From a virus, in IMG/VR virus record IMGVR_UViG_3300027767_000001, positions 1-38,482 of that record: 38,482 nucleotides of DNA. One strand, given 5' to 3'. The position numbers and the translations under genes are program-made. Below, piece after piece: positions 9,532 to 31,356 of this stretch (position 1 is its first letter; each line of letters begins with the position of its first letter). A model generated the notes under the pieces. It worked only from the letters and a program-made list of their open reading frames with translations. It was not told the DNA's origin and ran no database searches.

Positions 9532-10012
9532 TCTTTTTCTCTTCTAGAGAATTTGTCCATATATGAGTCATAATGTTCTTGACTTGCTCATCTGATAAAT
9601 CATCTAATCCAGGAGCTTCTAATTTTTTTCTATTGTATTTGAATTGATCTATCGACCACATAATCGTATTGTCTTCGGCAAAATTTCCTCTTTCATATGA
9701 TTTCCACAGCTCTCTTGGAGGAATTAACCAGCAAATTTCTACGATATCAGTATGAGATTGTGCTCTGAAAAGATATGAATTTGTCTGTGCCTTTGGCTTT
9801 GTTAATCGTGGCTGCCATAGAAGTTTTTTTGTAACGCCATCATCTGCAGTTCTTGTATGTGCAAATAGATAAATATAAGGGGAATGGTCTTGCATTCTAA
9901 GAGAATCGGGATTGCGTTTTAAGCAATCATCAGCTCCCTGCCATATCGTTTGAGACTGATCTCTTATGAAATGGTAAAGTCGATCGTCAGTTTCTAATCG
10001 ATTTAATTTCAT
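9488..10012 (-). CDS. Conserved phage protein of unknown function
   Basis: A 174-residue protein on the strand opposite to its head-gene neighbours. Distinct stretches are SPYIYLFAHTRTADDGVTKK (44-63), LWQPRLTKPKAQTNSYLFRA and DIVEICWLIPPRELWKSY. I recall similar proteins near head genes of other podovirus-like phages, but no function. The C-terminal region (DDLSDEQVKNIMTHIW) is helical and acidic. It is divergent from the scaffold gene and convergent with the 76-residue gene. Confidence 0.65.
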   Translation of the reverse strand: MKLNRLETDDRLYHFIRDQSQTIWQGADDCLKRNPDSLRMQDHSPYIYLFAHTRTADDGVTKKLLWQPRLTKPKAQTNSYLFRAQSHTDIVEICWLIPPRELWKSYERGNFAEDNTIMWSIDQFKYNRKKLEAPGLDDLSDEQVKNIMTHIWTNSLEEKKIKQVIAEASSTVSN

Positions 10013-10081
10013 CTATTTCCCTGCTTGATTACTATATCAAATGTTTGGTTTAATCGCCAAGGCGACAACAAAAGGATTTAC

Positions 10082-10762
10082 ATGACATCAGAAGTTAAAT
10101 CACAAGAGCCACAAGATCAAAAACAGAACGACAAAGAATTTAATTTTCGACAATTAGAATCTAAATATGAGAAACAACTAGCTCAGGAGCGCCAAGAACG
10201 CATACAAGAAAGAGCAGCTCGAGAAAAACTGGAAAGAGAAATGCAAGAAATACGCACTTCCTTTCAACAGTCTCATTCAGAAGAAGAAGCAGACGAACCC
10301 TATGTAGATCACAAACGTCTGGATAAGAAATTGTCTGCCTTTGAGAAGAAGTTAGAGGAAAAGATCGAGAAAAAAGCAGAGGAAAAAGCGCGCAATTTAA
10401 TGGCTCAGCAAGGACAAAATGACTGGCTGCGTCAGAATCCGGATTTTTATGATGTTTTGCAGCATGCCGAGAAATTTGCCAATGCTAATCCCGATCTTGC
10501 AGATACCATTCTTAGAATGCCCGATGGCTTTGAAAGACAGAAACTCGTATATGCAAACATTAAGGCTTTAGGCATACATAAACCCGTCGAAAAGCAACCA
10601 TCGATACAAGATAAAGTCGACGCAAATCGGAGGACACCTTATTATCAGCCGTCAGGAATCGCTACTTCTCCCTACGCTGCCGCTGGAGATTTTAGCGCTT
10701 CAGGCCAGAAGCAAGCGTATCAGAAAATGCAGGAACTAAAAAATAAACTTAGACTGGGGTAA
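10082..10762 (+). CDS. Capsid scaffolding protein
   Basis: A 226-residue protein from ATG 10082 (AAAGGA ribosome site), preferred to an upstream in-frame start at 10025 that lacks one. Residues about 25-125 are an almost unbroken charged coiled coil (QLAQERQERIQERAAREKLE by character, then KKLSAFEKKLEEKIEKKAEE). The C-terminus (YQKMQELKNKLRLG) is a basic helix, the usual capsid-binding end of scaffolds. Its position between portal and capsid genes fits. It would be removed from the head during maturation. Confidence 0.82.
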   Translation: MTSEVKSQEPQDQKQNDKEFNFRQLESKYEKQLAQERQERIQERAAREKLEREMQEIRTSFQQSHSEEEADEPYVDHKRLDKKLSAFEKKLEEKIEKKAEEKARNLMAQQGQNDWLRQNPDFYDVLQHAEKFANANPDLADTILRMPDGFERQKLVYANIKALGIHKPVEKQPSIQDKVDANRRTPYYQPSGIATSPYAAAGDFSASGQKQAYQKMQELKNKLRLG

Positions 10763-10770
10763 AAATCCGT

Positions 10771-10947
10771 ATGCACAAACTTACACATCATGATGAAATG
10801 ATGGGAGGGGAACATTCTCACCACCATCATAAAATGAAGAAAAAAGCACACAGCCATCAATCTAAAAAAGAGCACCATGAACATCATCATTCACATCATG
10901 GCAAGCATCATAGCACCATGGCGCTGAAAGCAAAAATTGCACGGTAA
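10771..10947 (+). CDS. Histidine-rich small protein (19 His of 58 residues)
   Basis: An open frame from ATG 10771, 8 bp after the scaffold stop, encodes 58 residues of which 19 are His, in clusters such as SHHHHKMKKK and EHHHSHHGKHH. It also has 11 Lys and a basic end (MALKAKIAR). Four consecutive His and repeated HH pairs imply binding of Ni, Zn, Cu or Co, or pH-dependent charge. It is co-directional with scaffold and ends just before a terminator. I know of no described family. It is too short and biased for homology to be certain, but codon-level bias (mixed cat/cac) argues for selection on the protein. Confidence 0.6.
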   Translation: MHKLTHHDEMMGGEHSHHHHKMKKKAHSHQSKKEHHEHHHSHHGKHHSTMALKAKIAR

Positions 10948-10970
10948 TACGGTAAAATAAAATTTTATAA

Positions 10971-11006
10971 ATTGGCAGTGATTTAGCTGCCAATCTTATT
11001 TTTTTT
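10971..11006 (+). terminator. Rho-independent terminator after scaffold operon
   Basis: ATTGGCAG (10971-10978) pairs with CTGCCAAT (10987-10994) around an 8-base loop, followed by CTTA and a run of eight T. It closes the plus-strand transcript of scaffold and His-rich genes and abuts the stop of the convergent minus-strand gene. Confidence 0.8.
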
Positions 11007-11220
11007 GAAGCATATCGAGCAATATGTGATAAAGCCTATTATTCTCTTCATAAAGATGATCGGTACGTGCTTCAGAACGATGCAAACTAGCTTCCCTCCT
11101 GTTAGCATCAACTCTAAATTCAGATAAATCCCGTTGTATATCTCGCAACATGAATTTGAGCATTGCCCACATCATGCCAGCTAGGAGACCTAGTGTAACT
11201 AATGATTCCAAATAATGCAT
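10996..11220 (-). CDS. Membrane-anchored coiled-coil protein (74 aa)
   Basis: From an ATG at 11220 with an AGGGAG ribosome site. Residues 4-24 (LESLVTLGLLAGMMWAMLKFM) are one transmembrane segment. The rest is charged helix with heptad spacing (RDLSEFRVDANRREASLHRSE). The design (short N-terminus, one membrane helix, cytoplasmic or periplasmic coiled coil) resembles small holin-associated or inner-membrane spanin proteins. No specific family is recognised. It is downstream of a similar gene at 11277. Confidence 0.65.
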   Translation of the reverse strand: MHYLESLVTLGLLAGMMWAMLKFMLRDIQRDLSEFRVDANRREASLHRSEARTDHLYEENNRLYHILLDMLQKK

Positions 11221-11276
11221 ATCATTCTCCCTAAACTCAAGTATAACAAAATCGCTGATTTATGGAAATTTAAAGA

Positions 11277-11561
11277 TTATGTGGACTCTTTAGGCTTGCG
11301 GCTGTTCCTTCTTTTCGATCTATTCGGGGCAGAGAGAAGAGCTTGAGGTTTTCTTTCTTCCAATCTCACCTCTGTCATGCTTACTCGCACATTCAGATCA
11401 CCCACTTTTGACTCAATCATCATTAGATGCTTAGTCACGATATCAAAATGATTTTGATCCTGTTTTCGTGAGCGATGTATTGAGAAAAGTGTCAAAACCA
11501 TCAAAACAAATATTAGGAGTTGGAAAGCCAAAGTGACCAAAAAGATGGATTGAAAAAACAT
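11277..11561 (-). CDS. Membrane-anchored coiled-coil protein (94 aa)
   Basis: From an ATG at 11561 with AGAGG upstream. Residues 3-27 (FQSIFLVTLAFQLLIFVLMV by character) form one transmembrane helix. A heptad region follows (HLMMIESKVGDLNVRVSMTEVRLEERK), then a very basic, Ser/Pro-rich tail (NRSKRRNSRKPKEST). It has the same layout as the 74-residue neighbour and as several genes at 24258-24865. A lysis or membrane role is possible but not shown. Confidence 0.65.
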   Translation of the reverse strand: MFFQSIFLVTLAFQLLIFVLMVLTLFSIHRSRKQDQNHFDIVTKHLMMIESKVGDLNVRVSMTEVRLEERKPQALLSAPNRSKRRNSRKPKEST

Positions 11562-11631
11562 GAAAACCTCTATTTGTAATGAAAAATAACGAAAGCATTG
11601 ATTTCCAACAACAAATTTATCAACTTTTTGC

Positions 11632-11659
11632 TTTACTCTATAAATTATTTTGATATAGT
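11632..11659 (+). promoter_or_regulatory. Candidate promoter for the capsid gene
   Basis: TTTACT (11632-11637) and TATAGT (11654-11659) are 16 bp apart on the plus strand. They lie in the divergent gap between the minus-strand coiled-coil gene and the capsid gene, just after a strong terminator cuts off upstream transcription. A separate promoter here would explain high capsid expression. Confidence 0.45.
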
Positions 11660-11846
11660 GGGTTCACGTTCGCTTTACGTTAAAAGCATTCGCGTAAAAT
11701 GGGTATCGCACCCCTGTTGGATATGAGCGAGAACTGACGTAATTAGGCTCGTCTACCGATCATCATATCGTAATGTACGGAATCGAGTTATCCGGAAATT
11801 CCGGATAGTTGGAATTCGTGCTCAACATTTCGACCGTGAGGTTGTC
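11660..11846 (+). promoter_or_regulatory. Long structured 5' leader of the capsid gene
   Basis: This 187-bp untranslated stretch contains several inverted repeats, such as GGGT-ATCGC-ACCC near 11700 and a perfect 9+1+9 palindrome TATCCGGAA-A-TTCCGGATA at 11789-11807. The latter lies about 40 bp before the capsid ATG and carries a TCCGGA core also seen in the iterons at 84-163. It may fold as RNA, or be a protein-binding site, or both. Confidence 0.45.
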
Positions 11847-13098
11847 ATGTCGGTTACGACAACTGGGAACCTGGGCCCACTCATTTTACAGAGTTTAGCT
11901 CCTGCTATGCTCTATGTGCCTACTCCCACAATGAACTACATCACAATCTGCGACAAGGTATCTATGCCTGCAAACGGCGGTACCACTTGCAGATTTATGC
12001 GCCCACGCGCGCTGACACCGCCCACTGTACAGTTGGGAAATAGTGGTATCGATCCACCAGCACAAGTGCCACAAAGAGATATTATAGATGCTCAAATGGC
12101 TTTTTTCGGTGAATCCAGTGCCGAAATTAATGACTTGTATTATGCCTTAGGACTGGCTGCATAATAAATGAACAAGTTATTTTACAGGATTTTTTTGAAA
12201 ATTGGTCCTGTATAAATCTGACCTAATCGACTTGGACCCCTAAATCACTTAAAAAGGTGACATGGAAACAAGGCGGAAGGACTTAATACACCTGATGTGT
12301 ATTTAAGTCCACCGTGACAGACTAAAGCGGTTGGATACACGAAAGTGTAAAGCGATAGTCGGGTCTCACGAGGAAACCGTGAGAGACATGCAGAGATGAC
12401 ATGTCCCCATATTAATATGGAGTAACAATTCGCAAGAAGGTGTATTAGCTTGGGTATCTGAACGTTTAGCTGTCGCAATGAGACAAGCAGAGGATATTAT
12501 CCTACGCGACTACATTGTTTCGGCTGCTAGCCAATTAAATGCTGGAGGTGGTTCCAATGGAGACAATCCAACAAATTTGGGCATCACCGACTTTTCTTTG
12601 GTGGCTACAACTCTTGATACAAATAACGCATACAAGTTTATGAGCGGAATCGAGGGTATGGACCGTTTTGGTACAGGGCCCGTTCGTTCCGCATACTTCA
12701 TGCTGTCTAGCACCGAATTGCAGACCGACTTTGACGGTTTGACAGGTTCAGGATTCTTGTCTCAATGGAACTATCCAACCAACGCGTCAGCTCTTCCTGC
12801 CGAATATGGTTCAGTATTCAATATCAGAATCTTAACTAGCTCGGAAGCTCCTGTTGCACGCGGTGCATCGATGCTTGGAAACGACGTCTATTACAACACG
12901 GTAGTTGGTAAACAAGCTGTAACACACATCAACCAAGATGGCTACAGCATGAACCTGATTTATCGCGATCCTTATTATTCTGGGATGCTCGCACAAAACG
13001 CAACTTTGGCAGTCAAATTTGCACAAGCGCAAGCCATTACCCAGGATACTGCCATTCGAAACCTTTTAAGCACTCGTCTTTCGAGTTTAGGAGTGTAA
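11847..13098 (+). CDS. Major capsid protein, interrupted by a group I intron
   Basis: Exon 1 is 11847-12140 and exon 2 is 12421-13098 by my reconstruction, giving 323 residues. The joined region reads ...SSAEINDLY|SNNSQEGVLAWV and continues to ERLAVAMRQAEDIILRDYI. It matches the conserved N4-gp56-type capsid pattern (EINEQVxLQNQDxVLNExxERLGVSMRQTED-like). Without splicing, exon 1 would run 7 codons into the intron and stop, and exon 2 would lack its own ribosome site. The fold expected is HK97-type, and several hundred copies would build the head. Start ATG 11847 is preceded by GTGAGG. Exact splice points are inferred. Confidence 0.88.
12141..12420 (+). ncRNA. Self-splicing group I intron, ORF-less (about 280 nt)
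   Basis: The conserved core is visible. The P7 strand in GACAGACTAAAG (AGACTA, 12319-12324) pairs with TAGTC at 12356-12360 in AGCGATAGTC. P8 is TACAC-GAAA-GTGTA (12336-12349). P3 pairs CTAATCG (12223-12229) with CGGTTGG (12328-12334). P2 is ACAGGA/TCCTGT (12184-12211). P6 is a long hairpin at 12279-12310. P9 is near 12363-12387. For P1 the exon end GACTTGTAT pairs with GAACAAGTT (12170-12178) with a terminal U-G pair and one A-A mismatch beside it. The last base is G and the codon phase is kept. It has no internal ORF. Confidence 0.92.
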
Positions 13099-13099
13099 T

Positions 13100-14257
13100 A
13101 TGACCGAATATTCAAGAATGGTAAAAGGTAACTTTACAGCGACATCTGCACAGCAGATTATTACTCTGCCTTTTCAACCAGACTATGTAGAGATCTGGAA
13201 CTATAGCATCATCAAGACAGCAGCCACTCACTCCGTTACAAGAGCATGGTGGGACGGAAAATTGAATGATGGCTCTAATAACCCAACAATGATCGAGTTG
13301 TATTCTGCTGCAACTACCTCAACAGTATTTGACACCATTCAAACGAACGGTATCAGTACTTTTGCTGGCGCTCAAATGCTTCAGTATGGAGCCTTGTACC
13401 AACACACTGGTTCCACTGATTTTTCTATTAGCAAAGCCAGTCCAGCAGTAGTCACAACTACTACAAACCATAACTTGCAAACAGGTGACGTTGTAATTTT
13501 CTCAAACCTGGCTCAAACATCAACAACTGGTATGCAGCAAATCGCTGAAATACCATTTATGATCACACGAACAGGTGCTACAACTTTCACTATTAACTGG
13601 AACACAAACCAGTCGAACTACACAGCATTCAACACTGCTACTTCGACTAACAACGTAGGCTCTTACAAAAAGGTGCTTTATCCTTATTTGTACTTGCCAA
13701 CAGTGTCTGTTATTAGCGCAATCACCACAGGTTCCACCACCACAATTTCTACAACAGCGCAACACCAATTGCATGTTGGTCAAGAAGTCGGGTTTAGAAT
13801 TCCTTCACAGTGGGGCACAACCCAATTGAATGAACTTCCAAACAGCGTGACACCTGGTTCGCCGATTTATGGTTACGTCGTATCAATCACTGACCTGCAA
13901 AACTTTGTGGTTAACATCAACTCTTCAGCTTACACAGCATTTATTTCTAACCAAACGTTCGCAGGAACAGCCGGTAGAACTTTTGCTCAAGTAGTGCCTG
14001 TTGGTGATGTGAATAGTGGAGGAACTAGCATTACTGTTGGATCTCAACTTTATCCACCACCTGCATGGTCTTATGCTGTTCAGGATGACAGCTCAACCAT
14101 CAATGGTCCTGCTATACGAGGAGCATTTGTCAATAACACCTCACAAGGGTTTGTAATTGGCAACGGCGTAGCAGCCGTCGATGGCACAGCAACGATGATC
14201 GCTAGCACGAACATTGTATACTGGCACGCATATTTGCATGACTTAGGTCAGCCTTAA
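13100..14257 (+). CDS. Beta-rich virion protein with two repeated modules
   Basis: A 385-residue protein starting 1 bp after the capsid stop, very rich in Thr, Ser, Asn and Val. Two modules of the type V-I-S-A-I-T-x(n)-T-x-x-x-H-x-L-x-x-G-x-x-V can be seen at about residues 111-200 (TTNHNLQTGDVVIF) and 202-300 (TAQHQLHVGQEVGF). These are followed by a strand ending in NINSSAYTAF. The same module recurs in the genes at 14301 and 17307. It is likely a capsid decoration, head fibre or tail-associated protein. A terminator follows it. Confidence 0.6.
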   Translation: MTEYSRMVKGNFTATSAQQIITLPFQPDYVEIWNYSIIKTAATHSVTRAWWDGKLNDGSNNPTMIELYSAATTSTVFDTIQTNGISTFAGAQMLQYGALYQHTGSTDFSISKASPAVVTTTTNHNLQTGDVVIFSNLAQTSTTGMQQIAEIPFMITRTGATTFTINWNTNQSNYTAFNTATSTNNVGSYKKVLYPYLYLPTVSVISAITTGSTTTISTTAQHQLHVGQEVGFRIPSQWGTTQLNELPNSVTPGSPIYGYVVSITDLQNFVVNINSSAYTAFISNQTFAGTAGRTFAQVVPVGDVNSGGTSITVGSQLYPPPAWSYAVQDDSSTINGPAIRGAFVNNTSQGFVIGNGVAAVDGTATMIASTNIVYWHAYLHDLGQP

Positions 14258-14267
14258 TTTGAGGATG

Positions 14268-14300
14268 AGAGAGGGGGTTTTTCCCCTCTCTTAATATTTT
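14268..14300 (+). terminator. Strong hairpin terminator after the capsid/decoration genes
   Basis: GAGAGGGG (14269-14276) pairs with CCCCTCTC (14283-14290) with loop GTTTTT, followed by TTAATATTTT. It ends the capsid transcript, perhaps only partly, since the next gene starts at 14301. Confidence 0.75.
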
Positions 14301-15293: not shown

Positions 15294-15325
15294 ATATGCC
15301 CAAAGAAAAAAAGGGAGTTATCCCA

Positions 15326-15514
15326 ATGGATAAAAAAAAGAATTGGATAGCCGGAGCGATAAAAAAACCAGGCGCATTACGTAAAAGTTTGCATGTAAAG
15401 AAAGGGGAAAAGATTCCGGAAGAAAAGCTTAAAAAAGCTGAACATTCTAAGAATCCCAAGACTCGAAAGCGTGCTCATTTAGCTGAAACATTGAAGAAAA
15501 TGCATAAAAAATGA
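15326..15514 (+). CDS. Small basic conserved phage protein (62 aa)
   Basis: ATG 15326 is chosen over 15296 because AAAGGGAG lies 9 bp before it and the product then begins like its relatives: MDKKKNWIAGAIKKPGALRK. The motifs WIAGAIKKPGAL, GEKIPEEKL and RKRAHLAETLKKM are shared by a widespread group of short phage proteins of unknown role near structural genes. It is very basic, so it may bind DNA. It overlaps the next start by 4 bp. Confidence 0.75.
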   Translation: MDKKKNWIAGAIKKPGALRKSLHVKKGEKIPEEKLKKAEHSKNPKTRKRAHLAETLKKMHKK

Positions 15515-17306: not shown

Positions 17307-20300
17307 ATGGGTGAAAAAATCGTTGTTGGTCCAGTCAATAAGGGATTGAGAAATGATAGACTGCCTTTTGTCATTGACAACGATGCTTTCCCAGTTTTGA
17401 TCAATGCTTATCAGTGGCGTGGAAGATTAAAAAGAAAAAGAGGAACGTCTCTTTTAAATCGACTTCAGCGCTTTTGGAACTCTCTTTCTTTATCATACAA
17501 TTCAGGAAACACAACACAAACTTTGTCTGGAGGCGCTGGCAACCTTTTAACGGGATTTACAGGATTTACTTTTGAGCCCTTTGCGACAATTGAACCTGGC
17601 ACCGTCACCATAAATGATGAAACGGCCGCACAAACATACACCGATCCCAGTGCTAATGGTATATTAGTTGGAAGTAGCGGAGGCACCGGCACGATCAATT
17701 ATGTCACAGGAGCGATCACAATTTCAGGAGGTGGATCTCACGTAATCGATGCTAAATTTGTCTACTATCCTGATCTTCCAGTCATGGGAATCGAGGATTT
17801 TTTTCTTACCACAAGTGCATTTCCAGGAACGATCGCTTTCGATACGACTTATTCATACAACATTGTCACATCTGCTCCCTACAATGTTTATGATGTCAGC
17901 TTTTATAAAAATCCTGTAAGTGGAACCTATTCGGGATATACACAAAAAACAACGGTTACATCAACATCATGGAATGGACAAGATTACCAGCAATTTTGGA
18001 CTACAAATTATCAGGGCGCTTTGTGGGCGACAAATGGTATTGATATTCCATTTACTATTCAAAACATTGGGATGCAATTTGCTCCTGCTAGCACGATAAC
18101 TTTTGTCTCACAAACGGCCACAACATTGACGGTAACAATCACTAATTGTCCGCTTATCATTGGTGATTTTGTATTTGCTAATGAATGGGGAGCATCAAGT
18201 GCAGCAAATGCTTTGACCTTGAATTTTCAGACTGGATATGTAACAGCTTGTGCGCCAAATACACCACCTCTTGCCACAAAGACTATTACAGTAACTTTCC
18301 CGAATGCAGCGATTGCCACAGATACATACACACCAGGAATTCTTCAATATCTTACGAACCGATCTGATGAGACGAAAGATTGTATCAGATGGTATGATGG
18401 TGATCCTACAAATGGTAGCAATACAGCTCCAGTTTTAAACAACCATTTGGGATGGGTAAATTTTACACCTCCATTATCCAAGTTAAATTATTCTGTCGGT
18501 GGATTGCCAGCGGGTCAGTGGTATTTGATTGGCGCACGGATAATCATCCCATTCAAAGATAGATTGCTTTTCCTTGGGCCCGTTGTCCAAACATCAACAG
18601 TGGGAAGTCAAGTTTATCTGCAAGATACCATTATTTATAGCCAGAACGGAACGGTATATTACACAGCTTCTTTTACTGGCGATCCCTCATTTGTCACAAC
18701 TGCCTATAACGCAATTTTGGTCCCTGTAAACCAAACAGCAACTGCATCCGCCTATTTCGAGGATCAAACCGGATTTGGAGGATTCATAACAGCCGGACTT
18801 GATCAACAGATTATAACTGCATCACCGAATGAAGACGTGCTAATCGTCGGATTTAATTCTATGTATCAGACACGTTTAATTTACAGTGGAAATGACATCG
18901 TTCCTTTCAATTTCTTTGTCACAAACTCAGAACTTGGCTCCTCTAGCACATTTTCAGCCATCACCATGGATGAAGGTGTAATATCTCGAGGAAATCACGG
19001 ATTCGTAATAACAAGCCAGGACAGGGCCGATAGAATTGATTTAGAAATTCCTGATGAGGTATTTGAGATCAGTCTTTTGCAAAACGGAAATGAAAGATTC
19101 ACTGCACAACGCGACTTCATAAACGAATGGATCTACTTTACATATCCCGTTAATAATACACCTTCAACAAACGGTGTTACTTATAAATTTCCAACCCAAA
19201 CTCTTCAATTCAATTATCGCGATCAATCATGGGGTATTTTTTTAGAAAGCTATACAACTTATGGGGCTTTCAGGGCTTTAACGGGATATACATGGGCAAC
19301 GATTGGGCAAAAATTTTCTAGCTGGAGCGCTTGGAATGAACCTTGGAATACTGGCTCTTCAACACTTCTTCAGCCAAAGGTAATTGCAGGAAATCAGGAT
19401 GGTTTTGTTCTTTTACGAGAAAATGGAACTAATGAGGGAGTTTCACTCTTTATATTGAATTTCTCAATCCCTGCGACTATTACCGGTATAACTCAGGCAG
19501 CGAATGCAGCAGTTACTGCAAACAATGATTTTATTGTGGGCCAACAAGTCATGTTTAGCGGAGTTGTTGGCATGACTCAAATTAATGGACTCACAGGGTT
19601 CATTTTAGCAGCAACGACTACTCAGTTTACGGTAAATATTAACTCTACAGGATTTACCGCCTATGCATCAGGAGGCATCGCTACTCCTGTAGAGCCGGTC
19701 TATTCACCAAATCATTCTCTCGATGCCGGAGATTATATCATCATTAGCGGATGTTTAGGCACCGTTGGACCCTATGTAAACAATCAAATTTTTTCAGTTC
19801 AAAACCCAACTACTAATGGTTTTTCTTTAAATCCGAATCCATTACCTGCTTCTTTTACTTATCTTGGCGGAGGAGTAATTACAAGAATGTATGTTCCATT
19901 CATACAGTCCAAACAATTTCCTGTAGAATGGGCCATGTCGAGAAAAACAAGACTTGGAGCTCAACAATATCTTCTGTCTACAACAAGCACCTCGCAAATC
20001 ACTTTGCTGATTTTCTTAAGCCAAGATTATGAAAATCCATATAACAATCTTGAATACCCAAATCCCGTGCAGATTGTGCCAGAGGTGTCTCAAAACAATA
20101 CTTTGATTTACAGCACAATTCTTTATACATGTCCAGAGAGTACAAATTTAGGTTTAACTTCTGCCAATATCAATTTGCAAATGGTCACAGCCCCAAGTCA
20201 GCAGCAAATCTGGCATAGGATGAACACATCCCTGCTCGGAGATACGGTGCAAGTTGGCTTTTCGATGAACGACACTCAGATGCGCTCTTTAACACCATCG

Positions 20301-20606
20301 ACAATGGTTGTTACAATAACTGGAGCCTCTCAGGCAAATCCTTGCGTTTTGATAGCCTCAAATAGTCTGATGGTGGGTCAGTTAGTTTTAATTCAGAACG
20401 TCGTTGGAATGACACAATTAAATAATAACATCTATGCCATTGCAGCAGCTAATTCGACTACGATAACACTGAATGTAAACTCAACAACCTTCAATGCCTA
20501 TGCATCGGGAGGAACTGCTACAGTGGTTACACCGGTAGATCAATTTGCAGAGATCGAGATACATGGTTTCATTTTAGACGTACAACCAAGCATGGTGCTT
20601 GCATGA
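17307..20606 (+). CDS. Large tail hub protein, beta-propeller-like (1099 aa)
   Basis: The largest protein here. The N-terminus (VNKGLRNDRLPFVIDNDAF, then NAYQWRGRLKRKRGTSLL) is typical of large tail proteins that begin by taking over from the portal adaptor. The body is beta-rich with few charges, suggesting a propeller or multi-domain hub comparable to P22 gp10. Two copies of the shared beta-module occur at about residues 721-790 and 999-1070, both with VGMTQ(I/L)N and a YASGG(I/T)AT end. The start at 17307 has GAGG upstream. The hub role is inferred from size, place and N-terminus. Confidence 0.6.
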   Translation: MGEKIVVGPVNKGLRNDRLPFVIDNDAFPVLINAYQWRGRLKRKRGTSLLNRLQRFWNSLSLSYNSGNTTQTLSGGAGNLLTGFTGFTFEPFATIEPGTVTINDETAAQTYTDPSANGILVGSSGGTGTINYVTGAITISGGGSHVIDAKFVYYPDLPVMGIEDFFLTTSAFPGTIAFDTTYSYNIVTSAPYNVYDVSFYKNPVSGTYSGYTQKTTVTSTSWNGQDYQQFWTTNYQGALWATNGIDIPFTIQNIGMQFAPASTITFVSQTATTLTVTITNCPLIIGDFVFANEWGASSAANALTLNFQTGYVTACAPNTPPLATKTITVTFPNAAIATDTYTPGILQYLTNRSDETKDCIRWYDGDPTNGSNTAPVLNNHLGWVNFTPPLSKLNYSVGGLPAGQWYLIGARIIIPFKDRLLFLGPVVQTSTVGSQVYLQDTIIYSQNGTVYYTASFTGDPSFVTTAYNAILVPVNQTATASAYFEDQTGFGGFITAGLDQQIITASPNEDVLIVGFNSMYQTRLIYSGNDIVPFNFFVTNSELGSSSTFSAITMDEGVISRGNHGFVITSQDRADRIDLEIPDEVFEISLLQNGNERFTAQRDFINEWIYFTYPVNNTPSTNGVTYKFPTQTLQFNYRDQSWGIFLESYTTYGAFRALTGYTWATIGQKFSSWSAWNEPWNTGSSTLLQPKVIAGNQDGFVLLRENGTNEGVSLFILNFSIPATITGITQAANAAVTANNDFIVGQQVMFSGVVGMTQINGLTGFILAATTTQFTVNINSTGFTAYASGGIATPVEPVYSPNHSLDAGDYIIISGCLGTVGPYVNNQIFSVQNPTTNGFSLNPNPLPASFTYLGGGVITRMYVPFIQSKQFPVEWAMSRKTRLGAQQYLLSTTSTSQITLLIFLSQDYENPYNNLEYPNPVQIVPEVSQNNTLIYSTILYTCPESTNLGLTSANINLQMVTAPSQQQIWHRMNTSLLGDTVQVGFSMNDTQMRSLTPSTMVVTITGASQANPCVLIASNSLMVGQLVLIQNVVGMTQLNNNIYAIAAANSTTITLNVNSTTFNAYASGGTATVVTPVDQFAEIEIHGFILDVQPSMVLA

Positions 20607-24175: not shown

Positions 24176-24261
24176 TCACACTCCTCGCCCCATTCATCCT
24201 TGATCGTACATATAAAGCCAATAATGAAGATAAGAAAAAAGAATCCTGCAATGATTTTCAT
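24172..24261 (-). CDS. Small membrane protein (29 aa)
   Basis: ATG at 24261 with a very strong GGAGAGGAG site. It encodes MKIIAGFFFLIFIIGFICTI followed by an acidic end (KDEWGEECD). It is one transmembrane helix. Its start overlaps the stop of the coiled-coil gene upstream (ATGA), and its end overlaps the convergent ejection gene by 4 bp. Tiny membrane proteins like this can be holin or antiholin parts. No match is recognised. Confidence 0.55.
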   Translation of the reverse strand: MKIIAGFFFLIFIIGFICTIKDEWGEECD

Positions 24262-24611
24262 TTTTTCTCCTCTCCTTTTATCAATTTAGGTTCCCAATGA
24301 TATTCATATGGATGCATGATGCTTAATTGGCCTTCAATTCTTGAAATTCTTGAATCAAGTATTTGTAATTTATCTTCAACTGATTTAATTTCTCCTTTTA
24401 CACCTTTAATTTCTTCTTTAAGTTCTTCTTTTACACCTTTAATTTCTTCTTTCACACCTTTAATTTCTCCTTTTACACCTTTAATTTCTTCTTTAATTTC
24501 TTCTTTAATTTTTAGGGCCTCACGTCGTGCCCCAATGCGAATGAAAATATACACTCCTAAAGCTGAGCCGAGGGTAGCTAAAATTTGCAGATTATCAGTC
24601 ATAATATTCAT
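24258..24611 (-). CDS. Membrane-anchored coiled-coil protein with 7-residue repeats
   Basis: A 117-residue protein from ATG 24611 (GAGGA upstream). Residues 8-27 (LQILATLGSALGVYIFIRIG) form one membrane helix. Then comes a charged region built from near-identical heptads of the type IKGVKGE/IKGVKEE (about residues 38-80), an ideal coiled coil. The tail (YEYHWEPKLIKGEEKK) is short and basic. The layout recalls XhlA-like or spanin-like proteins. The repeats are also repeats at DNA level, so length could vary. Confidence 0.7.
   Translation of the reverse strand: MNIMTDNLQILATLGSALGVYIFIRIGARREALKIKEEIKEEIKGVKGEIKGVKEEIKGVKEELKEEIKGVKGEIKSVEDKLQILDSRISRIEGQLSIMHPYEYHWEPKLIKGEEKK
24380..24500. 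repeat. 21-bp tandem repeats in the coiled-coil gene
   Basis: The word ACACCTTTAATTTCT begins at 24400, 24433, 24454 and 24475 on the plus strand, spaced 33, 21 and 21 bp. Each 21-bp unit codes for one heptad on the minus strand. Such repeats can gain or lose units by slippage without breaking the frame. Confidence 0.8.
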
Positions 24612-25811: not shown

Positions 25812-28112
25812 ATGTCGTCTTTAGTCTATGGTATCGGTGGTTTAATCTCTGTTGCTCCTCCTCCAATTGCGGGTGTCGGGGCTCCTCCTGCATCTTTTAG
25901 AGGTGCATTGGGTCAACAATTCTTCGATACATCTCAAAAGCCTCCCGTTGAATATATATTTAATGGTCAAACTTGGGCGACAGGCGGCGCTAATCCTGCT
26001 ACTACAACATCTTTGGGTACCGTTTTCTTAGCGACGTTATCTCAAACTGAATCGGGAGGTGCCCCAAGTTCGAGTTACGTATCTTCCGCAAACGATGTAG
26101 CTACTGCTCTTTCGGCCATTGTAGTTGGCGCCGGCGTCCCTGCCACTACATCTCAACAAGGTTATGTTTTTTTGGCTACAAATGCTCAGGCAATTGCTGG
26201 AGCTATCTCGACTAATACAGTAATCATACCATCGAATCTTCCTGCAGTATTCGCATCTCCACCAGCAATAGGAGGAACTGTTGCTGCGGCTGCTACATTT
26301 ACCAACTTAACCGCGGCAGGAACGGTCAATCTAAATGCGACTGGAGCTGGGGTTACAACAATTGGAACTGGTGGTACCGGCGCGGTAAACATTGGTAATG
26401 CAACCGGAAACACTGCCGTAACTGGAACTTTGACAACCAGTGCTGGAATTACAGTAACGACTGGCGGCTTAACTGTGACAGCTGGCGGCTTGACGGTAAC
26501 TGCAAATGGTGCTGCCATCACAGGAACTACAACCGTTAACACTACAGGAAACTCCAATACAACTATTGGAAATTCTGCAGGATCTGGCGCTGTCACGATA
26601 AATACACCCAGCGGAAATCTTTCTATTACCGGTAATGGCAACACAATTTCCATTGGTGCCGACAACAACACAAATACCATCAATATCGGTACTGGCACAT
26701 CTGCTGACACAATTGCAATTGGTGGCTCTGGTGCAAATACAATCGCAATAGCTAATACACAATCGGCTGGATCATTAGCAATAGCCGCTGCCATGACTAC
26801 CGGAACCGTATCGGTTGGCGGCGCTTCGATGACTGGTAACATTGTAATTGGTCAGTCTACAGCAGCTGGAGGTCAAACGATTGCCATTGGAAATGGTGTG
26901 AACGCCGGCACCTTAACTATAAACATGGCAAACGCTGCAAGCGCAACTGGTGCAGCAGCAGTGAACATTCTTTCTGGCGCAACACCTGGTGCTAACCAAA
27001 CTCTAACCATTATGGGTGGAATAGGCAGCGCTGGTAACCAAGTATTTTCGTGTCAAGGTGCGGCAATTTCTCAAGGCACAAATACCGCAACATTCTTCGG
27101 AGGGATAACTACTGGAGGGACGAATTCCTTTAACATATTTAATGCTGCATTCACCGGCGGAACGAACTCTGTAAATATCTTTTCGGGAGCTTACACAACT
27201 GTTGCCGGAACGTTTAACCTATTTTCAGGAGCTTCTACCCATGCAGGTACCACCAATATTGGAACAGGAACCAGTGCAGCTCACGCGACAAATATCGGTA
27301 GTAACGCCGGTGGAAACGTCACGATCATCTCAGGTTCTTCGGGAACAATTGGCATTGGTCTGGGAGGTAATGCAGCTCAAGTTATTACCATTGGAGCTGC
27401 TGCACAAACAGGAACGATCACACTAGGATCATCTTCGGCTACATCAACTGTGAATATTGCAAATGGATCAGGAGCTGCAACTGTGGCTATTGCCAATGCT
27501 GCAACCACAAATGCAGTGACACTAAACATTGCGGGTGCATGTACAGGTGGAGTGACAATGGCAATTGGTGCTGGTGTAAATACCGCCACCAACACTTTGA
27601 GTATTTTCAATGCTGCCTCAGCCACAGGTGCTTCAACGATCAACATTCTGAATGGTGCGACACCAGGTGCTAGCCAGACCGTCAACATTATGACAGGTTC
27701 CAATAGTGCAGGCACTCAAACGCTCAGCGTTGGTAGCTCATCGCAAGCCGCTAACATTATAACTTTAACCGCTGGTTCTACAGGTGGAATCAATCTAGTT
27801 GCTAAGACAAACGTGACCGGAAATTTAAATTTTGTCACTTCCGGAAACAAAATCTTGAGTGCAAACGTTGGTACCACAACAGCCGCGGGAGCCAATTCAT
27901 TCGGATCTGTAGCTCTAGTTGGTGGTACAGCAATTGTTGCCACGACAGCGGTAACTGCAAACTCTCTGATTTTCTTAACATGCCAGGCACTTGGAACTGT
28001 CGCAGTTGCATCAGCACTTGCTGTAACGGCTAAAACCGCAGGAACAAGTTTTGTAATCACTGCCTCCCAGGGCACTGACACCTCAACAATTGCATGGTTC
28101 ATCGTCAACTAA
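25812..28112 (+). CDS. Tail fibre with Gly/Ala/Thr/Asn repeats (766 aa)
   Basis: The N-terminus (SLVYGIGGLISVAPPPIAGVG, then RGALGQQFFDT and YIFNGQTW) is a virion-attachment domain of a kind common in phage fibres. From about residue 165 on, the chain is a long series of short strands of the type N-x-x-I-G-x-x-x-(S/T/G)-x-x-x-x-I (TTIGTGGTGAVNIGNATG, TINIGTGTSADTIAIGG), as in beta-solenoid or trimeric adhesin stalks. The C-terminal domain (about 690-766) is less repetitive. It likely binds host surfaces. SD GGGG precedes ATG 25812. Confidence 0.75.
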   Translation: MSSLVYGIGGLISVAPPPIAGVGAPPASFRGALGQQFFDTSQKPPVEYIFNGQTWATGGANPATTTSLGTVFLATLSQTESGGAPSSSYVSSANDVATALSAIVVGAGVPATTSQQGYVFLATNAQAIAGAISTNTVIIPSNLPAVFASPPAIGGTVAAAATFTNLTAAGTVNLNATGAGVTTIGTGGTGAVNIGNATGNTAVTGTLTTSAGITVTTGGLTVTAGGLTVTANGAAITGTTTVNTTGNSNTTIGNSAGSGAVTINTPSGNLSITGNGNTISIGADNNTNTINIGTGTSADTIAIGGSGANTIAIANTQSAGSLAIAAAMTTGTVSVGGASMTGNIVIGQSTAAGGQTIAIGNGVNAGTLTINMANAASATGAAAVNILSGATPGANQTLTIMGGIGSAGNQVFSCQGAAISQGTNTATFFGGITTGGTNSFNIFNAAFTGGTNSVNIFSGAYTTVAGTFNLFSGASTHAGTTNIGTGTSAAHATNIGSNAGGNVTIISGSSGTIGIGLGGNAAQVITIGAAAQTGTITLGSSSATSTVNIANGSGAATVAIANAATTNAVTLNIAGACTGGVTMAIGAGVNTATNTLSIFNAASATGASTINILNGATPGASQTVNIMTGSNSAGTQTLSVGSSSQAANIITLTAGSTGGINLVAKTNVTGNLNFVTSGNKILSANVGTTTAAGANSFGSVALVGGTAIVATTAVTANSLIFLTCQALGTVAVASALAVTAKTAGTSFVITASQGTDTSTIAWFIVN

Positions 28113-30753: not shown

Positions 30754-31356
30754 ATGGAAAAAAGGCCCGGTGTTTACAGATTACAAAGTCTACCTACAGG
30801 AAGATTTTACATAGGTTCTTCCAAGAATGTTTATAGAAGATATTACAGACATAGGCAGATTCTACGAGAAGGATTAAAGGAAAATCTTCGCATTAAAGAA
30901 GATTGTGACAAATATGGGCCCAACTCATTTATTTTCGGAGTTATAGAATATTGTGAAGAAAGTGAGTTAAGAGAAAGAGAACAGTATTATTTTGAACTTT
31001 GGAATCCTCAATATAACGTCCGGAAAAGTGTTTATGACGGAAGTGGCAGAACTTATACAGAAGAGCAGTTAGCAAACTTTAAGAAAATTCACAGGCCGAT
31101 AAAGGATAAGGAATTATTTAGGAAGAAGCTAAAAGAAGGATGGGAAAAGCGAAGAGCTAGATGTTCACCCGAAGAGCTTAGTAAAAAATTAGCAGATGCC
31201 CGACGCGGCATAAAACATTCCGAAGAGACAAAAGCTATAATGAGCGCTAATCGGAAAGGGAAAAAGAAGTCTCCTGAGTGGATTGAAAAATTCCGTGAAA
31301 GACGTAAAGGGACAAAATTAATAGATGGTAAATATATCAAACTTGAAGGCGGCTAA
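30754..31356 (+). CDS. GIY-YIG homing endonuclease (free-standing)
   Basis: A 200-residue protein with AAAAGGAG before ATG 30754. The catalytic domain has GVY (6-8) and YIG (19-21), Arg29, Glu76 in REQYYFEL and Asn88. C-terminal DNA-binding motifs follow: a NUMOD3-like stretch (GIKHSEETKAIMSANRKGKK, 152-171) and a basic end. It lies between two spike genes with its stop overlapping the next ATG (TAATG). It could spread itself, or serve the ORF-less capsid intron. Confidence 0.88.
   Translation: MEKRPGVYRLQSLPTGRFYIGSSKNVYRRYYRHRQILREGLKENLRIKEDCDKYGPNSFIFGVIEYCEESELREREQYYFELWNPQYNVRKSVYDGSGRTYTEEQLANFKKIHRPIKDKELFRKKLKEGWEKRRARCSPEELSKKLADARRGIKHSEETKAIMSANRKGKKKSPEWIEKFRERRKGTKLIDGKYIKLEGG

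Follow-up and report, generated by a model that had tools for sequence, protein, structure and literature searches.

The window analysed here, the whole stretch of 38,482 bases, is a complete IMG/VR virus record. Between a scaffold-like ORF and the capsid coding sequence (from 11847), it contains a short ORF whose translation is MHKLTHHDEMMGGEHSHHHHKMKKKAHSHQSKKEHHEHHHSHHGKHHSTMALKAKIAR, starting 8 nt past the stop of the upstream ORF (Table 1). The 58-aa peptide contains 19 His, 10 Lys, 5 Met and 4 Glu, with no Cys and no Phe, Trp or Tyr, and no hydrophobic stretch was found in its sequence. Among the 144 six-frame ATG ORFs of the window with at least 40 aa, it has the highest His content (33%, vs. 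9% for the second), and the maximum His fraction across 60 first-order Markov genomes was 15%, which bears out the first-pass annotation in describing a His-rich peptide. The His codons are mixed (14 CAT and 5 CAC), and this mixture, already held there to argue against simple repeat expansion, counts against a frame derived from chance or repeats. The same annotation had the gene ending at a terminator. A hairpin of 9 pairs followed by a T-rich run was indeed present (10971-10994), but the number of such sites in the region of the peptide gene (2, vs. a shuffle mean of 3.0) showed no excess.

Table 1. Positions of the peptide gene, its motif segments and associated features in the window
Feature	Position	Strand	Basis or remark
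His/Lys-rich peptide gene, 58 aa	10771..10947	+	translation, profile homology, motif
Motif A segment (residues 2-24 region), common to 13 other phage peptides	10771..10839	+	alignment; AlphaFold2 short helix 6-10
Motif B segment with a short C-terminal helix (MALKAKIAR region)	10915..10944	+	pattern in 8/37 peptides; AlphaFold2 helix 50-57
Terminator-like hairpin and T-rich run 3' of the peptide gene	10971..11006	+	number of such sites not above shuffles
Scaffold-like ORF directly upstream of the peptide gene	10025..10762	+	inferred; possible ATG start at 10082
Second small Lys-rich protein, 72 aa	15296..15514	+	weak phrog_20603 match (unknown function)

PHROGs and Pfam searches identified terminase, P22-like portal (PF16510) and capsid proteins in the window, and the C-terminal part of the capsid matched phrog_1357 (major head protein). 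The ORF at 10025-10762 had no PHROGs or Pfam match; it probably encodes the scaffold, judging from its position between portal and capsid, its charged composition and its occurrence in all of the near-whole relatives (40 of 40). Close relatives of the capsid are common in IMG/VR, where 220 of 228 matched stretches were confirmed and the best 80 of these kept. Among annotated phages, no match to the window portal or to the C-terminal part of the capsid was observed, the capsid of an intact relative gave one weak match, and this comparison of portal and capsid revealed no cultured relative or host. Host assignment from six genome contigs bearing the capsid gene was rejected, since they carry six different bin labels and are probably misbinned phage contigs.

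Other features of the window are as follows. Near the start of the record (82-143), a 20-bp unit, GGGTCCGGAAAGCCGGACTC, which is itself nearly palindromic, is present three times. The Pfam E1_FCCH domain, whose name comes from ubiquitin-activating enzyme, scored above the curated cut-off in the proteins encoded at 13100-14257 and 17307-20606. The gene at 24258-24611 (minus strand) encodes a protein that has a hydrophobic stretch at its N-terminus and GVKEEIK-type heptads repeated in tandem, which correspond to 21-33 bp tandem repeats (TRF). A probable tail protein with a K1-lyase-type C-terminal domain (25812-28112) and a GIY-YIG endonuclease ORF (30754-31356) were also observed.

Two inserts interrupt the window's capsid gene, one of 41 nt and out of frame (12111-12151) and one of 242 nt (12191-12432). 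Short inserts of 32-65 nt, none divisible by three, were found in 9 of 91 distinct loci, close to codons 88-92, and comprise type 1 (window 12111-12151, L004, L264, L065 and L086) and type 2 (L078, L186, L188 and L021). The reading frame continued from the upstream exon runs open through all five type 1 inserts, ending in LAA or LVA, and ends in AAA or MAA in all four type 2 inserts. Such endings resemble the ssrA degradation tag, and the similar codons flanking the short inserts (Gly..Gly, Ile..Ile) are reminiscent of the translational bypass in T4 gene 60. L264 has the 41-nt insert as its sole interruption between codon 88 and the QEGVLAW block, an insert too short for a self-splicing intron. 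The Rfam matches of the 242-nt insert were below the gathering score (group I intron, 18.2 bits; LOOT RNA, 26.9 bits). The measured capsid gap was 281-2505 nt in 33 of 96 distinct relatives, compared with 33 nt in uninterrupted ones. Nothing on capsid-gene introns of such phages was found in the literature covered, most subscription papers lying outside that coverage, and these inserts may perhaps be worth more attention than the peptide.

Homologues of the peptide and status of the gene

Motif A, H-x-L-[TS]-[HE]-x-[ED]-E-x-x-GG-x-x-SH, is common to 14 distinct phage peptides, the window peptide included. Its SH is invariant in all 14, with further His next to it in most members. The peptides of L041, L049 and L024 are encoded directly behind the scaffold and have the HKLTHxEExxGGExSHxHHKK pattern seen in the window. 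The motif scan added L273, L274/L275, L276, L277 (one and the same record as G031), L278/L284, L282, L285 and L286; 2 of 12 pattern matches (L281 and L288) fell by chance in long, unrelated ORFs and were removed. G004, together with G049 from the profile search, brings the set to 14 distinct members.

When the window ORF was left out of the profile it was still found (22.0 bits, E 6.6e-4 in 49,054 ORFs), and none of its 500 shuffles reached this score, the best shuffle being at -0.5 bits. Each of the 13 members tested was recovered by a leave-one-out profile, with 0 of 500 own-residue shuffles reaching the score every time. With composition correction on, the full profile at E up to 1 matched 16 real ORFs and no shuffled ORF, the 16 being 13 of its own members, the near copy L275, and L257 (G049) and L088 as new matches. 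With the HMMER composition correction off, 77 real and 69 shuffled ORFs matched, indicating that this correction matters. Motif B, [TMKI]A[LIM]KAK[IVM][AG], whose pattern was composed after the sequences had been seen, is present in 8 of the 37 collected peptides and was obtained in none of 500 shuffle rounds; elsewhere in 3.9 Mb of six-frame sequence, only one more K/H-rich peptide, the second in L274, contains it.

The gap-free pair L041-L049 shows differences at 20.1 of 27.2 synonymous sites and at 26.9 of 149.8 nonsynonymous sites, which gives a ratio of 0.24. The pN/pS was 0.20-0.47 in 31 of 32 pairs and 0.85 in the exception (L274-G004), where the pairs are only those with pN < 0.32, which favours low ratios. 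These substitution patterns show that the peptide relatives are under protein-level purifying selection; the window ORF, too diverged for the pairwise test, is in none of the 32 pairs, so the selection applies to the relatives.

That the frame is no gene at all, being open by chance or derived from repeats, is highly improbable. The sequence is of low complexity, and the 69 shuffled matches with the correction off illustrate that composition alone can mimic membership; this is opposed by the 16 real and 0 shuffled matches with the correction on, the mixed codons, the leave-one-out homology, relatives that are saturated at synonymous sites while the protein is conserved, and an opposite strand without such ORFs (0/96). 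Judged by these comparisons of sequence, ORF 10771-10947 is a real gene.

The window peptide had no match in Pfam, PHROGs or NCBIfam, and the family profile had none among PDB sequences. When the 14 members were compared with PHROGs, two families were matched by one member each (E 0.015 and 0.14) and none by the window member. BLAST found no match to the peptide among phages (E up to 1), nor to the L285 homologue in either phages or plasmids (E up to 10); masking of the queries is the most likely cause, and these blanks do not count as evidence of absence. DNA searches of window 9600-14300 against phages and of the peptide ORF alone against plasmids also gave no match. A peptide search of genome records found 0 of 50, a false negative since at least G005 carries a homologue. 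In the literature covered, which left most subscription papers outside, nothing was found on such a phage peptide. The peptide family has no name and is an accessory family of uncultured phages.

Distribution and position among related phages

A wider set was collected from 40 near-whole relatives and the window by filtering for short ORFs in which K+H make up at least 30% and hydrophobic residues are few. The filter was passed in 25 of 41 genomes; the pass of G032 was a DUF6496-like protein only, and G049, missed by the filter, was recovered by the profile, so that a short Lys/His-rich peptide is still counted in 25 of 41 genomes, window included. The scaffold-capsid interval holds the gene in 15 of the 25 carriers (G001 only if the record is circular), and in the other 10 it is elsewhere (G004, G007, G013, G014, G017, G031, G036, G043, G046 and G049).

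Within 500 nt after the scaffold, a K/H-rich ORF was observed on the coding strand in 20 of 96 distinct loci and on the other strand in none. Among these 20 loci, L072 also has a filter-passing DUF6496-like ORF, and the peptides of L033 and L039 are identical. In seven control slots the corresponding numbers were 0 or 1 (portal 1/101, g8705 1/104, g9036 0/88, capsid 0/93, g13100 0/81, g14301 0/69 and g15511 0/39), in one further slot (g14727) 8/65, and in all five control slots with 13 or fewer loci 0. A translated His/Lys-rich gene beside the scaffold is supported by the homologues, the selection in relatives and the enrichment in this slot. Relatives lacking any ORF at this site had been named as evidence against the first-pass annotation, and they were found in part: 76 of the 96 scaffold slots are without a K/H-rich ORF within 500 nt, and 10 of 25 carriers have the gene elsewhere. 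These 76 slots and 10 genomes argue against the idea that the peptide takes part in scaffold-driven assembly or maturation as a fixed component. The absence from most slots and the variable place indicate an accessory and portable gene with a preferred slot behind the scaffold, and no constant component of head assembly.

From a divergent clade, 80 loci were retrieved, of which the 60 distinct ones with enough sequence were counted. A K/H-rich ORF lies behind the capsid in 6 of these 60, with motif A in 2 of the 6, indicating that most phages of this clade do without a motif A peptide behind the capsid. Carriers of motif A include phages whose portal is about 27-28% and whose capsid C-terminal part is about 34-35% identical to those of the window. 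The peptide family belongs to uncultured phages of about 35-44 kb.

Other small Lys-rich proteins adjoin or are fused to the K/H peptide. The DUF6496 (PF20106)/phrog_2423 protein, likewise a small Lys-rich phage protein, adjoins it in G037 and G042 and is fused to it in G004. Its sequence differs, the window peptide giving no match to the PF20106 profile up to E 0.1, and in the G004 fusion PF20106 is matched by the N-terminal part alone, which is outside the K/H peptide. Relatives of the second small Lys-rich protein of the window (15296..15514) sit near the K/H peptide in several other genomes. Further arrangements were a DESLGMRRG-type segment fused to or beside the K/H peptide (L026:5104-5382 and L369), a DUF6496 module in the same relation (L197:8064-8399), a separate MHKKIMEKASKAL-type protein beside it (L234:16137-16474), and in L274 a second K/H peptide next to or fused with the first.

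Charge, predicted structure and possible role

Across the 37 peptides of 28-84 aa, the fixed charge K+R-D-E was 7.8 with an sd of 1.56, compared with an sd of 4.76 expected from resampled composition; these figures are indicative only, and the 0 of 2000 simulations in the charge test is not a probability, since the statistic treats the peptides as independent samples, whereas some of them are related and some were chosen by K+H content. The 14 motif-A peptides (7.1, sd 1.3) and the 23 others (8.2, sd 1.6) gave similar results against resampling of pooled composition (sd 4.4 and 4.8, respectively). The window peptide has a net fixed charge of +6, and the motif-A members are at +6 to +8 in 13 of 14 and +11 in one. 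Net charge is hardly correlated with length (r 0.07) while the number of His is (r 0.80), and the numbers of positive and negative residues rise together (r 0.64). The His share ranges from 0 to 33% with the net fixed charge near constant, so that His is perhaps not the core property.

AlphaFold2 with a 14-row alignment gave mostly low-confidence coil (mean pLDDT 63.7, pTM 0.20), with helices at residues 6-10 in motif A and 50-57 in motif B, and the peptide is accordingly predicted to be largely disordered, apart from two short motifs that form helices. In five members, which end differently (LHKMAK type), there is a C-terminal helix that is amphipathic and cationic (hydrophobic moment 0.44-0.51, reached by 0-0.95% of shuffles), and three motif-B members, window included, are without such a helix; the hydrophobic moment of the window peptide is 0.27, and 65% of shuffles reach it.

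The constant charge, variable His, disorder, late-gene neighbourhood and small Lys-rich neighbours together point to a partner bound by electrostatics, for which nucleic acid is the simplest candidate. Electrostatic binding of nucleic acid, with His as a second component that pH or metal would tune, is the favoured reading, at a probability of roughly 0.38. The peptide would be made late, together with the head proteins, and would bind nucleic acid electrostatically, most simply phage DNA and possibly inside the head. Lys would supply the constant charge, and His would add hydrogen bonding and a charge rising as pH falls, which metal ions could mask; such His-dependent changes would tighten or loosen the binding. 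Synthetic HK nucleic-acid carriers are not known to contain Glu, unlike the phage peptides. Several points count against this role for the phage peptides. Typical DNA-condensing polycations differ from them, as they have many Glu and their charge of +8 is modest. Motif A is a specific short sequence, more than mere charge would need, the gene is outside the scaffold-capsid interval in 10 of 25 genomes, only 2 of the 60 divergent-clade loci have motif A behind the capsid, and the His-poor peptides, linked to the His-rich ones through short motifs, may not be homologous to them. According to one report, synthetic His-Lys carriers bind nucleic acids and, like the phage peptides, have His and Lys as main residues, with Lys giving the charge and the imidazole of His the hydrogen bonding, buffering and pH response (PMC7465012); they are designed and without conserved motifs, whereas the phage peptides are natural and have motifs. 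By this analogy, the peptide might be a natural phage counterpart of such DNA carriers, a late fixed-charge peptide entering the head with the DNA, whose His block would let pH or metal switch the binding while DNA is packaged, in an acidic environment or as the DNA enters; this more specific form is rather unlikely.

The main rival of the nucleic-acid role is metal buffering, possible if on the unlikely side, in which a metal buffer or metallochaperone would capture Ni, Zn, Co or Cu inside infected cells through its His clusters (SHHHH, HHEHHHSHHGKHH), whether for detoxification, for supply to a metal site of the virion or for withdrawal from a host metalloenzyme. The 19 His in 58 aa and the invariant SH of motif A, mostly with more His after it, would fit such a function, as would the likeness to Hpn of Helicobacter pylori, which sequesters nickel (PMC4671568). 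According to that report, Hpn and Hpn-2 are about 60 aa, His-rich, of low complexity and overlooked by automated annotation, as is the phage peptide; Hpn has 28 His in 60 aa, and the 19 in 58 of the window peptide are lower but similar in kind. Hpn has two Cys pairs, whereas the phage peptides have no Cys (0 in 14/14 motif-A members and in all 37 peptides), much Lys and conserved motifs of their own. The absence of Cys speaks against metal buffering, and so do similar peptides in the same slot that have 0-5 His and retain the charge, as well as the lack of any recognised metal-handling gene among the window proteins searched. Histatin-5, a human salivary peptide likened here by properties with no homology claimed, is similarly short, disordered, cationic and His-rich, and binds Zn and Cu (PMC6872563, PMC10012264).

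The sporadic presence, shifting position and fusions with other small proteins would also suit a host-directed accessory peptide (moron), a small late gene in variable slots whose product would target the host, rival phages or, at lysis, membranes, much as a cationic His-rich antimicrobial peptide does. The amphipathic helix of the five members above agrees with this, but the window member is without that helix and without a hydrophobic stretch, and the strong preference for the scaffold slot is not in its favour, so this role appears unlikely. The same preference (20/96 scaffold slots vs. 0-1 of 39-104 in seven controls) would be expected of an assembly cofactor, a role in line with the first-pass annotation, that attaches to scaffold or capsid protein and modulates how the procapsid assembles or matures; the window has the gene immediately after the scaffold, and 15 of 25 carriers have it in the scaffold-capsid interval. 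Such a cofactor is improbable, as 76 of 96 slots are without the peptide, 10 of 25 genomes carry it elsewhere and it accompanies very different capsids (34-35% identity). Motif B (ALKAKIA) is only slightly like the scaffold C-terminus (QELKxRLRL), a resemblance rejected as too weak on 103 scaffold C-termini.

The peptide is short enough to be synthesised and assayed directly for DNA and metal binding. Low-complexity small genes of this kind escape standard searches, with BLAST blank even at E 10 and the genome search missing a known carrier. A His/Lys-rich family with protein-level selection, constrained charge and a portable place shows that genes of this type can be both genuine and frequent (25 of the 41 genomes here).
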